Made by a program: the position numbers and the translations under genes. DNA of 64,000 bases from Pseudomonas sp. (GTDB lineage: Bacteria; Pseudomonadota; Gammaproteobacteria; Pseudomonadales; Pseudomonadaceae), in assembly GCF_030684895.1 (NCBI RefSeq), contig NZ_JAUXXP010000039.1:21947-85946 (forward strand). The letters are read 5' to 3'. The notes beneath the pieces are model-generated. The model did no database searches, was not told where the DNA came from, and was given only the letters and a program-made list of their open reading frames with translations. How positions within the stretch are numbered: the first letter of the stretch is position 1; each line of letters starts with the position of its first letter. Positions 1-35,001 of the stretch are shown here, piece by piece.

Positions 1-1159
1 CACGCTGCTGGTTGAGTCGGTTGCTGAGGGCAAGGCCTTGGCCGCCCTGTCGCCGCGCGCCAACCGCGCGCTGATCGAGTCGGACGGCAAGCTGCAGCGT
101 TTCCTGGTCGACAACCCGCACCCGGAAATTTCCTGGAGCTCGCTGTGGGGCAAGGTCTGGTACGAGAACTATGACGCGCCTGGCCACGTCTGGCAGTCGA
201 CCTCCGCCAGCACCGACAACGAACCCAAGCTGAGCCTCGCGCCGCTGGCCTTCGGTACGCTGAAAGCCGCGTTCTACGCCATGCTTCTGGCGGCGCCGCT
301 GGCCATTGCTGCCGCGCTCTACACCGCCTACTTCATGGCCCCGGCGCTGCGCCGCAAGGTCAAGCCGGTGATCGAGCTGATGGAAGCGCTGCCGACGGTG
401 ATCCTCGGCTTCTTCGCCGGCCTGTTCCTCGCGCCCTATGTGGAAGGCCATCTGCCGGGGATTTTCAGCCTGCTGATCTTTACCCCGATCGGCATTCTGC
501 TGGCTGGTTACCTGTGGAGCCGCCTGCCGGAGTCGATTCGCCTGAGTGTGCCGGACGGCTGGGAGTCGGCGATGCTGATCCCGGTGATCCTGCTGGTGGG
601 CTATGTGTCGCTGGCCATGAGCGGCCATGTGGAGAACTGGCTGTTCGACGGCAACATGCGCATGTGGCTGAGCAATGACTTGGGCATTCCGTTCGACCAG
701 CGCAACGCCCTGGTCGTCGGCCTGGCCATGGGCTTTGCGGTGATCCCGACTATCTACTCGATTGCCGAAGACGCCGTGTTCAGCGTGCCGAAGAGCCTGA
801 CGTTCGGTTCTCTGGCTCTCGGTGCCACGCCGTGGCAGACCCTGACCCGCGTGGTGATTCTCACCGCCAGCCCAGGCATCTTCTCGGCGGTGATGATCGG
901 CATGGGTCGCGCCGTTGGCGAAACCATGATCGTGCTGATGGCCACCGGCAACACCGCGATCATGGACATGAACATCTTCGAGGGTCTGCGCACCCTGGCC
1001 GCCAACGTGGCGGTGGAAATGCCCGAATCGGAAGTCGGTGGTACTCACTACCGCGTGCTGTTCCTCTCGGCGCTGGTGCTGCTTGGCTTCACCTTTGTCA
1101 TGAACACCCTGGCGGAGCTGGTGCGCCAGCGTCTGCGCGTCAAGTACGCCTCGCTCTAA
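1..1159 (+). CDS. pstC: Phosphate ABC transporter permease PstC (5' truncated by window edge)
   Basis: Open frame continues to the left edge (frame 2). Permease motif ...PKSLTFGSLALGATPWQTLTRVVILTASPGIFSAVMIGMGRAVGETMIVLMATGN; followed by pstA, pstB and phoU. Confidence 0.93.
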   Translation, partial: TLLVESVAEGKALAALSPRANRALIESDGKLQRFLVDNPHPEISWSSLWGKVWYENYDAPGHVWQSTSASTDNEPKLSLAPLAFGTLKAAFYAMLLAAPLAIAAALYTAYFMAPALRRKVKPVIELMEALPTVILGFFAGLFLAPYVEGHLPGIFSLLIFTPIGILLAGYLWSRLPESIRLSVPDGWESAMLIPVILLVGYVSLAMSGHVENWLFDGNMRMWLSNDLGIPFDQRNALVVGLAMGFAVIPTIYSIAEDAVFSVPKSLTFGSLALGATPWQTLTRVVILTASPGIFSAVMIGMGRAVGETMIVLMATGNTAIMDMNIFEGLRTLAANVAVEMPESEVGGTHYRVLFLSALVLLGFTFVMNTLAELVRQRLRVKYASL

Positions 1160-13888: not shown

Positions 13889-14161
13889 ATGCGTAAACCG
13901 GAACTCGCCGCCGCTATCGCCGATAAGGCGGATCTGACTAAAGATCAGGCAAACCGTGTACTTAACGCGGTACTCGAAGAAATCACCAACGCACTGAACC
14001 GCAAGGACAGCGTCACCCTGGTGGGCTTCGGTACTTTCGTGCAACGCCATCGCGGTGCTCGCACCGGTAAAAACCCGCAAACCGGCGAGCCGGTAAAGAT
14101 CAAGGCCAGCAACACCGTCGCCTTCAAACCGGGCAAGTCCCTGAAAGATGCTGTAAATTAA
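13889..14161 (+). CDS. hupA: HU-family DNA-binding protein
   Basis: 90 aa MRKPELAAAIADKADLTKDQANRVLNAVLEEIT...GFGTFVQRHRGARTGKNPQTGEPVKIKASNTVAFKPGKSLKDAVN. Confidence 0.95.
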   Translation: MRKPELAAAIADKADLTKDQANRVLNAVLEEITNALNRKDSVTLVGFGTFVQRHRGARTGKNPQTGEPVKIKASNTVAFKPGKSLKDAVN

Positions 14162-14168
14162 ACACAGA

Positions 14169-14374
14169 GCGTTTCATTTTCTGTGGATAAGTTCTGCAAA
14201 GCCCCGTAATTCGGGGCTTTGCGCTATCCGAGGTAAGTGAAATTATCGAAACGGTGTTTCATTAAATACTCAAAAGAAAAAGTGATCGCATTGAAGCAGT
14301 AGCGTTTCATTATTGACGCCCATTTAGCCTGTCTATAGGCTTCCGTGCTCGTGAAAAAAGCGCGGTGTTTCATT
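14169..14374 (+). repeat. Four copies of GTTTCATT in two alternating flavours at the left end of the island
   Basis: GTTTCATT at 14171, 14256, 14304 and 14367. Copies 1 and 3 share AGCGTTTCATT; copies 2 and 4 share CGGTGTTTCATT. Copy 2 lies in an inverted repeat GAAAC-GGT-GTTTC (14248-14260). Confidence 0.75.
14196..14222 (+). terminator. Stem-loop terminator downstream of HU gene
   Basis: GCAAAGCCCCGTAATTCGGGGCTTTGC. Confidence 0.65.
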
Positions 14375-15591
14375 TGAAGAATTCAGTCTTTTCGCTCACT
14401 ACCGTCGTCTTCGATAAATTGGGCGGTATAAAACTAAAGCTAGTAACTGAAAGTAGTCAGGTTGATATATTTGCCGGCGCGTATGCTTTGCAACGATTCG
14501 ACAATGGTTCGAAGCCAAATACCATACGAGTTGATCAGAGCTCAATTCTGATCCTGTATCGGTTCTGTGAAATTCAAAAAATAGATTTGATTGAGCGCAT
14601 CGCAAATCTTAATCCGCTTACTATCGGTGAAATTGAGTCTTTCTCATCGTATTGCGGCTTTGCTCAACAGAGCGGCGAGCAGGTTAATCCGAATTGGTAT
14701 GGTGCCCGCATGCGAGGTGCTAAAAAATTTATAGATTACCTGTGGCTGTTCTATGAGGGACGGTGCGCTCGAAACTTAGAGCAACTCAAAATTGCTAAGC
14801 GTTCGTATGAGAGGATGACTGCCGGCTTCAAGTTGTATATGAAAGCCCCTTACAGGGGCGATAAAAAAGACAGGGTCGGCCTTACTCCTGCACTTCAGGC
14901 TAAATTCATTGCAATTATTGACCCTGATGAGAGCAATAATTTAAATCCTTGGAAGATTTATAAGGTGCGATGGAGAAATTATATTCTCCTGCTTCTATTG
15001 ATGTTGGGCGGAAATCGTAAAGGTGAGACGTTGTTGTTGAAGCTGAACAATTTCCAGCTTACAGGAATGCGAAAGTATTACGACATCGTCAAGAACAAAG
15101 ATGTGATTGATTATCCTCGCGCTGAGTCCCCCTCAGTTAAAACACTCGGCCGGCAGGTGGTGTTGCATGATCAACTGGCCGCATTAGTTGAACACTACAT
15201 TGTGAATGTCAGAAAAGAATTCATCGGCTGGCAGTCAACAAGCTATGTCTTCCTGTCTTACCGGGATGGGCGTCCTCTTTCAGTGCAGACTCCTAATTCA
15301 ATCCTGAATGAACTTATAAAACAATATCCAGAATTTGTGGGTCTTCTCAGCCCCCATCGCCTTCGCAATACGTTTCATGATCTTTTGAATCAGGCACTGG
15401 ATAGAAAATTTAAGGGTGAAAGTGGTTTAAGTCGTAAGGTTTTAAAAGCACCTATTCAGGAGGCGGCAGGCGGTTGGGCTAAGAATAGTAATATGCCTGA
15501 GCATTATGCTAAAGGATCGATACAAGCCAAAGTAGCTGAGTTACAAGCCCTACTCCAGCAAGAAGCCCTTAAGCCACAACTGGTTGATTAA
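14365..15591 (+). CDS. ginA: Tyrosine recombinase GinA-like (GInt operon gene 1)
   Basis: 408 aa; C-terminal tyrosine recombinase signature: R (LGGNRKGETLLLKL), HRLRNTFHD, GGWAKNS, EHYAKGS. First of four contiguous genes. Confidence 0.85.
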   Translation: MFHLKNSVFSLTTVVFDKLGGIKLKLVTESSQVDIFAGAYALQRFDNGSKPNTIRVDQSSILILYRFCEIQKIDLIERIANLNPLTIGEIESFSSYCGFAQQSGEQVNPNWYGARMRGAKKFIDYLWLFYEGRCARNLEQLKIAKRSYERMTAGFKLYMKAPYRGDKKDRVGLTPALQAKFIAIIDPDESNNLNPWKIYKVRWRNYILLLLLMLGGNRKGETLLLKLNNFQLTGMRKYYDIVKNKDVIDYPRAESPSVKTLGRQVVLHDQLAALVEHYIVNVRKEFIGWQSTSYVFLSYRDGRPLSVQTPNSILNELIKQYPEFVGLLSPHRLRNTFHDLLNQALDRKFKGESGLSRKVLKAPIQEAAGGWAKNSNMPEHYAKGSIQAKVAELQALLQQEALKPQLVD

Positions 15592-17196
15592 ATGAAAGAA
15601 CTCCATAGTCAGAGGGTGTTGTCCGGCAACGATGAACTTTCAGATTTTTTGCCGGGAGGCACTTTTGTAAAAAGTCGATTGGGCTATGACATCGAATTAT
15701 TTGATGAGTATGGTGGCTTTCGGTCTGCAATAAAACTGCCGGATGATACGGGTGAGTTTGTTTATCTTACATCACAGTATCTTAATCTGTTGGATTTTGA
15801 GTTAAGTGAGATTGCGAGGAGTTATCTAAGATATATCTTGGAGAGATATCATGCTTCAACTGTTAGAATTAAATATAAGTTTCTTGATTTGTTTGCCCGT
15901 GAGATGTCCAAAGGAGTTCATATCAACGACTTCTTGGAAAATATTTCTGTGCTTGAAAATAAAGAAAAGGCAGCATATATCTCTGCTTGTAAGGAATTTT
16001 TGAAGTTTCTATTGCTTTGCGGCTATGAAGATCTTTCACTTGAAGTGTATGAGGATTTCCATAAACTTCGAAATTATTCAGGTAAAGAAAATGCCTATTT
16101 AGCTCTATTTGTAATGGATGATGCCAGAGGGCCATTTACTAGAGAGGAAGTTTCCGTACTGTCAGGTCAGGTTAATAACCAGGCACTTCCGTTGGAATTT
16201 CGCTTGGTGTTAGATCTGTGTTTGTGTTTTGGGTTGAGACCAATACAAATTTCTTTATTGAAAAGAAAAGATTTTATTAAAGATAGTAGGAGCGGATTGT
16301 ATTATCTTAACGTGCCGCGCGTGAAGCAAGATTCGCGCAATCGGCGAGTTCAATTCAGCTCTCGAATACTCACGGAAAGAACTGCAAGTCTTATTCAGTC
16401 TTACATAGATTCTGCAAAAAATCCCGATGGTATTGATCCTGCAGAGCTACCACTTTTTATTAACTCAAAATCGATAAATTTAGAACGAGACGGAAATACC
16501 TTAGGAAGTCACTACTGGGAAGATGCAGAGCGGTTGTCAAGTGACTATTTCTCAGATGAGTCAAAGCGGGCCATACTCTACCAAAAGTCGAGTGGCAAAA
16601 TTAATTATATCCTTTGGGGAAATGAACATAGGCTGCCATTTTCCCCTCGTACCGGAAAGAAATTCAGTTTGTGTGCATATAGATTTCGTTACACGGTTGG
16701 CACGCAAGCAGTAATGTCCGGTTGTTCGCCAGAAGAGCTTGCCGATTTACTCGATCACAATGATACGAATAGCATTAAACACTACTTCAGATTCACTCAT
16801 GAAATGTGGGAGATTCTAGAAAATGCTACGTTGAGTCGCATTGAACAGAAGCAATTCACAGCTGCTTGGATGAGAGAAGGTGACCTTGTAAATAATATAT
16901 ATAGTCACGTATGTGAACCAAGAAATTTCAATGTCATAGGAAAGTGTGCGTCTCAATCTATATGCTTCGAGGAGCCGGCGGTATCTTGCTATTCGTGTGA
17001 CAGATTTTGTCCTAATAAAGATGTTGTAGCACATGAAAGTGCTTTGGAGGGTTTGGTAGAGCGAAAAGATCGCTTGCTAACCGTCAGCACCGCTAATGTA
17101 GTTTCAGTTATAGACCAGGCCATAGCTGGTTGCCGTGCTGCAATCGCCTACTCTGAAGGGCAGGACGTGGTTCTAATTAATGTGAAGGAAGTCTGA
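15592..17196 (+). CDS. ginB: Tyrosine recombinase GinB-like (GInt operon gene 2)
   Basis: 534 aa; LCFGLRPIQISLL (R1), YRFRYTVGTQ (xRxxR box), LLDHNDTNSIKHYFRF (H and Y); C-terminal Cys cluster CASQSICFEEPAVSCYSCDRFC. Starts directly after the ginA stop. Confidence 0.85.
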   Translation: MKELHSQRVLSGNDELSDFLPGGTFVKSRLGYDIELFDEYGGFRSAIKLPDDTGEFVYLTSQYLNLLDFELSEIARSYLRYILERYHASTVRIKYKFLDLFAREMSKGVHINDFLENISVLENKEKAAYISACKEFLKFLLLCGYEDLSLEVYEDFHKLRNYSGKENAYLALFVMDDARGPFTREEVSVLSGQVNNQALPLEFRLVLDLCLCFGLRPIQISLLKRKDFIKDSRSGLYYLNVPRVKQDSRNRRVQFSSRILTERTASLIQSYIDSAKNPDGIDPAELPLFINSKSINLERDGNTLGSHYWEDAERLSSDYFSDESKRAILYQKSSGKINYILWGNEHRLPFSPRTGKKFSLCAYRFRYTVGTQAVMSGCSPEELADLLDHNDTNSIKHYFRFTHEMWEILENATLSRIEQKQFTAAWMREGDLVNNIYSHVCEPRNFNVIGKCASQSICFEEPAVSCYSCDRFCPNKDVVAHESALEGLVERKDRLLTVSTANVVSVIDQAIAGCRAAIAYSEGQDVVLINVKEV

Positions 17197-19854
17197 GTGC
17201 AAAATATAATGGCACAGGATATTTTGCATGAGGAGCTTCGGATTAAGCTAAACCGCCTTGCCAGCAAAGCCGAGGAGAGATTCTCAAAACTCAGTTGTTT
17301 CAATGGGTCAAAGTGGGAGGATCTCTCCTGGTTATATAACGGAAGGCATAATGTTTATTTGCTGGCTCGCGGAGAAACTAATGCAGAGTTAATGCTACTT
17401 AATAAGGTCTTCTTGGTAAGTTATCTCTGGGACAGAAGGGCGGACCACAAGGTGGTATCAGCTGGTCGCGTTATGGACTTATCGGCTGCGGTAAAGTATA
17501 TGGCTGCTCAGGGTGTTGTTAACCTTAGAGGGCTTGATCAATCTTCCTACATGACAACGTTTAAATATATTCAAACACGCTATAAATCACCTGCTAGTGC
17601 ATGTAGATCGCTAAATTATTTTATCAGATTCATCTTTAATTCTTCCTTGACCGTTAGCAATTTTGACCTCATCGGTACGCAGGATCTTCAAGAGAAAGAT
17701 AAGTATGGCCGTGTTGCCCTTGGAGATAAACTGCCGCTTCCAGAATTGGTCAAAGCAATCATAGCGTTGAAGTGGGCAGTGCAAGACCAGTGGGATGGCA
17801 GCTTTCGTGCTCAGATGGATATGTTGTCGGTTCTGACTCAGGCATTTCAATATGGATTAGGCCTAAGAATCGGGGAGGTTCTGCGGTTACCTAAGAACTG
17901 CTTAGTTACAATAAACAGTGAGTTATATTGTCGAGTATGGACAGAAAAAGGTGCGGAGCCAATCGCCAGGTATGTCCCTACTATCTGGAGAGCCGCCCTC
18001 TGTGAAGCGGTTCTCCGAATTGATGCCATCTGCGAACCCTACAGAAAAAGGGCTTTGAGCATTGAAGATGGTTCCTATGCCGAGACTCTCGATTATCGCT
18101 TTCAGGGAAGAACAGAAGCAATTGATCGGCATATTGAGTCTACCCTAAACTGTCTATCTAAGAAAATAGAGTCTAATGTTTCAGCGTCTGAAAGACAGTT
18201 GCGCCTCCTGAAGTATCTGCCGGATGAAGAACTTGTTGAGCTCAAGAATTTGCGTGAGTACTTACCATTTGCCTCGAATTCGCACGACTCTACTTCACTC
18301 CTTAAATTCTACAAAAAAAACGGATTTAAGATAACTTCAAAATCACTCGGAAAGGTAAAGTGCGTTTATTATGTACGAGGATCTGATGTTAAGCAGCGAC
18401 TTGCTCAATTGATAGAGTTTCGCCGCAATATTGTTTTATATTCTGAGTTTTTTGAGGTGCTCCATAAACGACCACCTGCAGGAAGTCGGTCTAAGGATGT
18501 ACACGCTCTAAAAGATAGGTTGCAGTCGCAAAGCCTGGCTTCTTTGGAAGCCTTTGTCTTGACGGGGGAGTCGTGTCTTTATGGTGCGAGGATAGTATAT
18601 CTTAGTCGTGACGATGCAGTTGCCGCAATAAGAAATATTGTCAGTGGTGGGTATGATTATCGCGCTTACATTCCGATATTAGATGCTGAGGAACTTTATC
18701 CAGAGCTGTTCAACCAGAAGACCATGACCTACATTGCTAATGCAAATGCGGCTGGGTTCTACTCGTTTCTTAGAGTCTCGGAAGAACGAATCAATTTTTA
18801 TAGGCCAGTCGCGAAAAGCAATAGAGTTAAGCATTCTGCCGTATCTGGGTTCTTGGTTGAACAGGCCAGCATTAAAAGTGCCGTTGTAGATGCTTTTGTA
18901 TCAGTTAATACAAAAGTTAAGTCAGAACTAATCCAGGGAATTAAAGAGGAACTTCTAGCGGATGGAGTAGAGATTGGTTCGGCTACATTTGGGATAAATC
19001 AAAAAGTCTCTGATTATTTATTTGTTGTCCCAAGCAATCTTGGCGGTGTGTATAACGAACACATTCCATCTATCCTTGGCTATTTTTCTGTTCTATATGC
19101 GATAAAACCAGCTAAGCAGGGGCAGTCAGCGTTTGTCCGTTACGGTGTTGTAGCCAATGAAGAGATTGTAAGTACGTTTCAGACCCACAAGGGACGACAT
19201 TGGCAAACTAATTCACTTTTTCGGGCGGGCTTGGCTGCAAGTATTGTGAATAAGTGGATGGGAAGATCTGATAGTCAAGGTGATCATTACGATCATCAGA
19301 CTGCTAAAGAACGTGCTGAGAAAGTCGGTGAGCTTATGCTCTCTGAGCAGTCCCGCTTTATTGGTGATCTGGCGAATAAGGTCAAGGCTTGGACTGACAA
19401 TGATATTCCGACCCAGAATGTGCAGACCTTTTTGACTGATATGCTGCAAACCGTACATTACGGTCCGCTTGGGCATTGTTTTCGTGATATTAATTTGAAG
19501 CCCTGCGAATTTCATCTGAAGTGTCTGACCGGCAATTCAGGAAAAGGCTGTAGAGAGTTCGTTGTAGATCTTTTAGATCCAGTTCAAATAAAGCAAGTCG
19601 AGTCAGAGCGTAATAGATCAGAAATTGAGTTGGCGCGGCTTTTTGAAGCCTTGAATAGACCCGGTATCCCGGTAGAGTCTGTTGAAATGCATATCGAACA
19701 TCAAATGGCGATTTTTAGAAATGCTTCTTATATTTTAGATAATTCTGAGGTGGTGCTTAACGAAATTCAAGTTGAAAAGAGTAAGGACTATCAGCCATTT
19801 AGGACCAATGGCTCTGTTCCAAGCGACTGTGTATTCCAATGTGGAGTAGCTTGA
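17197..19854 (+). CDS. ginC: Large tyrosine recombinase GinC-like (GInt operon gene 3)
   Basis: 885 aa; FQYGLGLRIGEVLRLP (R1), RHWQTNSLFRAGLA, NKWMGRSDSQGDHYDH; Cys-rich tail CFRDINLKPCEFHLKCLTGNSGKGC. GTG start directly after the ginB stop. Confidence 0.85.
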   Translation: MQNIMAQDILHEELRIKLNRLASKAEERFSKLSCFNGSKWEDLSWLYNGRHNVYLLARGETNAELMLLNKVFLVSYLWDRRADHKVVSAGRVMDLSAAVKYMAAQGVVNLRGLDQSSYMTTFKYIQTRYKSPASACRSLNYFIRFIFNSSLTVSNFDLIGTQDLQEKDKYGRVALGDKLPLPELVKAIIALKWAVQDQWDGSFRAQMDMLSVLTQAFQYGLGLRIGEVLRLPKNCLVTINSELYCRVWTEKGAEPIARYVPTIWRAALCEAVLRIDAICEPYRKRALSIEDGSYAETLDYRFQGRTEAIDRHIESTLNCLSKKIESNVSASERQLRLLKYLPDEELVELKNLREYLPFASNSHDSTSLLKFYKKNGFKITSKSLGKVKCVYYVRGSDVKQRLAQLIEFRRNIVLYSEFFEVLHKRPPAGSRSKDVHALKDRLQSQSLASLEAFVLTGESCLYGARIVYLSRDDAVAAIRNIVSGGYDYRAYIPILDAEELYPELFNQKTMTYIANANAAGFYSFLRVSEERINFYRPVAKSNRVKHSAVSGFLVEQASIKSAVVDAFVSVNTKVKSELIQGIKEELLADGVEIGSATFGINQKVSDYLFVVPSNLGGVYNEHIPSILGYFSVLYAIKPAKQGQSAFVRYGVVANEEIVSTFQTHKGRHWQTNSLFRAGLAASIVNKWMGRSDSQGDHYDHQTAKERAEKVGELMLSEQSRFIGDLANKVKAWTDNDIPTQNVQTFLTDMLQTVHYGPLGHCFRDINLKPCEFHLKCLTGNSGKGCREFVVDLLDPVQIKQVESERNRSEIELARLFEALNRPGIPVESVEMHIEHQMAIFRNASYILDNSEVVLNEIQVEKSKDYQPFRTNGSVPSDCVFQCGVA

Positions 19855-20312
19855 TTGTGACTACGTCTACTGAGCAATGGGGTAAAGCTTTTTCGGTATT
19901 GCAACAATTTGAAAGACAGCTGATAGATCCTTCAAACTTTGGGTGGAAGTATATTACCGATAAGTCTGGTGTATCTAAGCCGACCCTTTGGCGAAACAAG
20001 GAATTTGAAAAAGAGTTTCAACGTATTAAGGAAGTTGTCAAAAGTTATGCTCGTGGTGAGAAACAGTTCGATCAAGAGGTTTCACTGAAAGCGGCCAGAG
20101 ATCGTGATCGAGATCACCAGATCGAGGTGCTCAAGGCACAGGTCCAGGAGTTGACGAAGCAATTAAATAGGGAGCGCGAAAGACTCATATACGCCTCTAT
20201 GATTGCTCGCCGTAAGAATATCGATCCTGCGGAATTCTTAGATGAGAGCCCAGTGTTTCGTAAGCCTGCCAAAGGCGGCTCGGTGGTCAAGCTGCCATCA
20301 AAGGGGCACTAG
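19839..20312 (+). CDS. ginD: GinD-like small HTH/coiled-coil protein (GInt operon gene 4)
   Basis: 157 aa overlapping the end of ginC; HTH-like ITDKSGVSKPTLWRNKEFEKEF then coiled-coil IEVLKAQVQELTKQLNRERERL. Confidence 0.75.
   Translation: MWSSLIVTTSTEQWGKAFSVLQQFERQLIDPSNFGWKYITDKSGVSKPTLWRNKEFEKEFQRIKEVVKSYARGEKQFDQEVSLKAARDRDRDHQIEVLKAQVQELTKQLNRERERLIYASMIARRKNIDPAEFLDESPVFRKPAKGGSVVKLPSKGH

Positions 20313-31525: not shown

Positions 31526-35001
<3,476 letters not shown>

Follow-up and report, generated by a model that had tools for sequence, protein, structure and literature searches.

The four GTTTCATT repeats between the HU gene and ginA are probably the left-hand half of an array of sites, divided between the two ends of an island inserted in hupA, by which the island's Gin machinery recognises its ends; the copies away from the crossover would be accessory. 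We give this reading a probability of about 0.7. The initial annotation had proposed recombinase-binding sites at an island end, and comparative analysis of empty loci, other left ends, the core word at the right end and other GInt families supports this proposal indirectly but strongly.

The repeats lie inside a GInt inserted at the end of hupA

The window, meaning the whole stretch of 64,000 nucleotides analysed here, carries the following features around the left end of the island.

13889..14161, + strand: hupA-type HU gene, the insertion target, from its open reading frame and alignment with empty loci; its last codons are the left attachment site
14142..14161, + strand: attL core TGAAAGATGCTGTAAATTAA; attR on contig C55, TGAAAGACGCGGTCAACTGA, repeats it imperfectly in direct orientation
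14171-14178, + strand: copy 1 (L1) of GTTTCATT, 10 bp past the hupA stop and about 20 bp inside the exchange region
14196..14222, + strand: hairpin GCAAAGCCCCG/CGGGGCTTTGC, an inverted repeat conserved in relatives, candidate hupA terminator supplied by the island
14256-14263, + strand: copy 2 (L2) of GTTTCATT, with an inverted GAAAC at 14248-14252
14304-14311, + strand: copy 3 (L3) of GTTTCATT, with TTGACG starting 1 bp downstream; exact in 10/10 left ends
14313..14339, + strand: weak promoter-like pair, TTGACG at 14313-14318 and TATAGG at 14334-14339, 15-nt spacer, read directly from the sequence
14367-14374, + strand: copy 4 (L4) of GTTTCATT, overlapping the ginA GTG start
14365..15591, + strand: ginA, tyrosine recombinase (Phage_integrase, E 1.7e-6)
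15592..17196, + strand: ginB, tyrosine recombinase with an integrase match, similar to GinB of GInts with ettA, ssb and HDAC targets
17197..19854, + strand: ginC, without a Pfam match, similar to GinC of other GInts
19839..20312, + strand: putative ginD, assigned by position and size only

Using hupA and its downstream DNA as the query against 200 Pseudomonas genomes, we found that the match ran through the whole hupA-ginA intergenic region at loci in three genomes (G134, G042, G064). Many loci matched only up to the hupA stop, and those designated L008, L009 and L011-L030 continued with other DNA. When these empty hupA loci were searched for the repeats, the cluster was absent, so the proposal of sites at an island end stood, and the view that the repeats are part of the hupA chromosome was ruled out. 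The host DNA that follows hupA in the empty genome of L009 was found on contig C55 of our own genome from about 19799, preceded by TTATTGAAAGACGCGGTCAACTGAG, and attR, TGAAAGACGCGGTCAACTGA, lies on the same contig at about 19800. Most attL sites contain GATGC, whereas attR and the empty sites seen contain GACGC, which would place the exchange inside TGAAAGAYGCNGT. Since attL lies within the last bases of hupA, all four repeats are inside the island, and since the window stops at the end of contig C62, the right island end lies outside it, on C55 of the same genome.

The island has the make-up of a GInt: ginABCD stand as four abutting reading frames at the 5' end, with GinD placed by position only; the insertion is site-specific, with imperfect direct repeats and an empty site in relatives; the cargo is variable; and the short 3' end is AT-rich, with a right-end GC of 0.36-0.46. 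For the putative ginD, neither Pfam nor the GInt comparison detected similarity to other proteins or GInts. When a plasmid collection was searched, the sole match was an HU gene.

GInt cargo comprises resistance, metal-tolerance and toxin-biosynthesis genes. The cargo at 20751-64000 is mostly metal-related, with a P-type ATPase, a lipoprotein signal peptidase, RND efflux pumps and a multicopper oxidase, and further includes three OprD porins, an MbnB-family gene and a NicO transporter. GInts also seem to mend their targets, to judge from 14196-14222, from L070, L075 and L079 and from the left ends of ssb GInts: an element-supplied hairpin lies 3' of hupA and of ssb, and ettA appears to receive a new start codon and N-terminus from the element. 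At three further loci (L004, L006, L010), remnants after hupA lack ginA but keep the hairpin and copy 1, the latter degenerate in L010, and look as if they were decayed or deleted islands.

The four copies are conserved at hupA-GInt left ends

The four repeats described in the initial annotation were exact, with start-to-start distances of 85, 48 and 63; the dyad GAAAC-GGT-GTTTC around copy 2 was present at 14248-14260, and the overlap of copy 4 with the ginA GTG agreed with the open reading frame at 14365-15591. The only other GTTTCATT of the window, at 31829(-), lies within an AcrB-type efflux gene. In dinucleotide shuffles of the 213-bp non-coding stretch, 0.3-0.4% had any 8-mer reaching four copies, and for the 238-bp end region about 0.6% attained four copies.

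We aligned the DNA 5' of ginA in hupA-GInts from GTDB genomes, including P. peli, P. marincola and P. indica. The results showed that the repeats are conserved, as expected of sites at GInt left ends: nine distinct hupA-GInt left ends whose ginA identity was 86% or more kept all four copies without change, and across eight distinct hupA-GInts copies 1-3 were invariant in 24/24 columns versus 106/179 of the other non-coding columns (Fisher about 1e-5). In the more distant G381 (ginA 75%, non-coding identity 0.61), copies 2 and 3 were exact, copy 4 had one mismatch and copy 1 had two. The three-copy pattern matched 6 of 400 Pseudomonas genomes, all six matches being hupA-GInt left ends, and the reversed pattern gave no match in the same 400 genomes.

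The two alternating flavours of the repeats fared differently. In the window they are exact, with AGC 5' of copies 1 and 3 and CGGT 5' of copies 2 and 4 (an exact 12-mer repeat), and the GT 5' of copies 2 and 4 is conserved, as is the GAAAC/GTTTC dyad at copy 2 in most relatives; the AGC is not, most relatives showing AGT, ATT or ATC where the window has AGC 5' of copy 1. Two conserved flavours were thus ruled out for copies 1 and 3 by the alignment. The idea that two flavours reflect two recombinases found no support, because AGC is not conserved and the GT at copy 4 belongs to the start codon.

Directly 3' of copy 1 lies a perfect DnaA box, TTATCCACA (14182-14190, - strand), the only one of the window, which is retained in 9/10 hupA-GInt left ends. 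Direct repeats beside a DnaA box could have a dual use as an iteron-like origin of the circular intermediate, and replicative excision was considered in the GInt paper (PMC5385486). We regard this as very improbable: the spacing of 85, 48 and 63 is irregular where an iteron-type origin has regular tandem repeats, the motif stands at both ends, the examined window proteins included no recognisable Rep gene, and a DnaA box was not noticed in the ettA family.

The core word recurs at hupA-GInt right ends

The paper that defined GInts in 2017 identified no common 3'-end feature for self-recognition, and described the att repeats as only 10-11 nt (PMC5385486). When the right island end was searched for the repeats, as the initial annotation had suggested, the GTTTCA core was there in three copies; in our own genome two face inward and one outward. 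Across nine right-end sequences, reading inward from the crossover, GTTTCAAAA lies at about 20 bp and GTTTCAATT 80 bp on, and in most of them an inverted copy follows about 62 bp past GTTTCAATT. The right end of G381 has two copies that are exactly GTTTCATT, and its inverted copy is near the first. In four distinct right ends the count of GTTTCA was three each per 250 bp, where the cargo would predict 0.1. Clusters of at least three GTTTCA per 250 bp occurred only at both island ends in G259 (60 kb), G381 (50 kb) and G070 (70 kb), and in our own genome one GTTTCA cluster lies in the window and a second on C55 at 19638-19785. As with arm-like sites, the repeats stand at both ends with position and orientation conserved relative to the crossover. 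Symmetric core arms around the hupA crossover were sought, and no consistent solution was found.

A gene for an OmpR-type regulator, made up of a receiver and a winged helix, reads inward at the right end in 7/7 hupA-GInt genomes searched, and elsewhere the regulator gave only distant matches at E below 1e-15. Three of these genes are located as follows.

L081, 1739-2485: OmpR-type regulator gene, hupA-GInt right end
L087, 1724-2443: OmpR-type regulator gene, hupA-GInt right end
own contig C55, 18846-19592: OmpR-type regulator gene, hupA-GInt right end

The right-end copies lie upstream of this gene and could therefore be operators, and at the left L3 and L4 sit on the ginA promoter and start. 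The repeats might then bind a regulator, for instance the OmpR-type protein or GinD, which would act on ginABCD through the left sites and on the regulator gene through those at the right, the repeats having no use in recombination. We consider this unlikely, though it is the most serious of the alternatives: beside the right ends of ettA, ssb, HDAC-like and ttcA GInts the gene was absent, yet the array is present at those of ettA and ssb; moreover, L1 and R1 adjoin the crossover, a position needless for an operator.

Other GInt families carry arrays of different motifs

The ABC-transporter gene ettA is the target of Pht-PAI and of the P. stutzeri DSM 4166 GInt, whose integration and excision have been demonstrated (PMC5385486). 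The ettA family inserts at the start of this gene and has GTTAGGTTTTG beside the -35 and GTTATGTTTTA right before ginA; its site word is GTTANGTTTTG where the hupA family has GTTTCATT. The left-derived motif GTTANGTTTTR, with one mismatch allowed, occurred three times in each right end of G257 and G145, at 35-37(+), 137(+) and 172(-), against a background of 0-2 matches in 31 kb of island, and the right-end order R1+, R2+, R3- is common to the ettA and hupA families. G257 has GTTAGGTTTTG at its two ends (p 0.01) and, in inverted form, also CTTAGAAAAGTTA (0/300 shuffles). An additional promoter-like segment with a motif-like copy lies between L3 and L4 in the ettA GInt L209 (G290).

TGTAAAG is the motif of the ssb lineage to which G032 and G317 belong; G032 has it five times at the left (p about 0.02), and in shuffle statistics of G317 alone it was not significant. 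For HDAC-like, ssb G172 and ttcA GInts, exact-word statistics on single left ends or on both ends combined were individually not significant, and as sequence comparisons these families are only supportive. The ttcA GInt of G063 has its own ttcA-like gene next to attR, about 175-1070 bp inside the right end, which perhaps replaces the interrupted ttcA.

The ssb GInts comprise at least three Gin lineages, each with a different motif. GinA of ssb G172 is 38-39% identical to that of HDAC-like-target GInts versus 23-32% to other ssb lineages, and the pattern GTTTACC...GTGTAAACA is common to ssb G172 and HDAC-like-target GInts. The motif thus tracks the Gin lineage and not the target gene, which argues against a property of the target and against sites that a host protein (for example IHF, Fis or HU) would bind. 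Many tyrosine recombinases get help from such proteins, and the region is AT-rich; yet within one genus different GInts use different motifs, and we hold host-protein sites to be improbable.

The left motif locates right ends

For the ettA islands G371 and G215 and the ssb islands G032 and G317, whose right ends were not known beforehand, we looked for clusters of the left motif alone in the 100 kb downstream. The right end was located in 4/4 of these further islands; cluster thresholds were set per family, so this is a prediction test and not a calibrated search. G371, G215 and G032 had one qualifying cluster each, and G317 had two clusters of two, the correct one being that with both copies in the same orientation. 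Beyond the clusters we found the att core and host DNA, with GACGTACTGAGCCATGG, GTTATTGAGCCATGG, ACCATTCTAGGG plus a hairpin and CCCGTTCTGA plus a hairpin; the core of G032 is the least clear among the four. The array thus offers a practical rule for locating GInt right ends.

Chance recurrence of a short AT-rich word would be conceivable for words of only 8 bp, four copies being reached in a small fraction of the 238-bp shuffles. It is contradicted by the shuffles of the 213-bp stretch, the pattern search in 400 genomes, the invariant columns, the confinement of clusters to island ends and the right-end prediction, and we give it practically no weight.

Proposed function of the array

In the recognition-site reading, one or more of GinA-D would bind the motif. 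L1 and R1, which point in opposite directions at a distance of about 20 bp from the crossover, may serve the catalytic complex, and L2-L4 with R2-R3 would be accessory, arm-like sites that unite the correct two ends in synapsis. More tentatively, the bound recombinase might also repress ginABCD, since L3 directly adjoins the promoter region of ginA and L4 overlaps the start of this gene. A sigma-70 consensus scan found no ginA promoter, and L3 and L4 flank the weak promoter-like pair. The autoregulation of ginA suggested in the initial annotation is geometrically plausible, with copy 3 beside TTGACG, copy 4 on the start and similar placement in the ettA family.

A wider possibility, which we rate below even odds, is that a two-ended address code is general among GInts, consisting of about 4 + 3 copies of a lineage-specific motif that co-evolves with GinA-D independently of the target. 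Such a code would keep GInts in one cell off each other's ends and would link the occupancy of the ends with gin expression and, for the hupA lineage, perhaps with DnaA as well; if true, GInt right ends could be found from sequence alone. Candidate recognition sites are now available at both ends for three or more Gin lineages, among them relatives of the lineage that has a working minimal element (pGInt0), and end recognition by a three-recombinase machine is directly testable.

Comparison with known systems

In the GInt literature searched, mostly outside subscription journals, no description of such sites was found. In phage and ICE systems (lambda Int, Tn916), the arm-type sites are contacted by a distinct N-terminal domain of the single integrase, and IHF/Xis are needed as well. 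Like the GInt array, these sites consist of several short repeats inside the ends and outside the crossover core; unlike such systems, with their one integrase, a GInt requires four Gin proteins. In the TnpI internal resolution site of Tn4430 the accessory repeats resemble the core-proximal recombinase motif, as in the GInt array, but that site is in one place and the GInt set is split between two ends.

RIT elements have three adjacent tyrosine recombinases, a make-up shared with GInts, and differ from them in being without cargo; they have only a 28-29 bp inverted repeat, and their authors did not find convincing core and arm sites (PMC3414803). SE elements and GInts are alike in having tyrosine recombinases, a recombinase-fold protein and an auxiliary protein; further points of likeness are the 6-bp exchange and the inverted motifs at the ends, C/C' in SE elements. 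For SE elements one motif of 13-19 bp per end is described and no iterated array, and the gene sets cluster separately (PMC10214605). Close counterparts are also the ettA-family GInts, which like this island have ginABCD at the left end, site-specific insertion and imperfect direct repeats; the Pseudomonas relatives of this family read here have the same site layout as the hupA-GInt, with GTTANGTTTTR in place of GTTTCATT.
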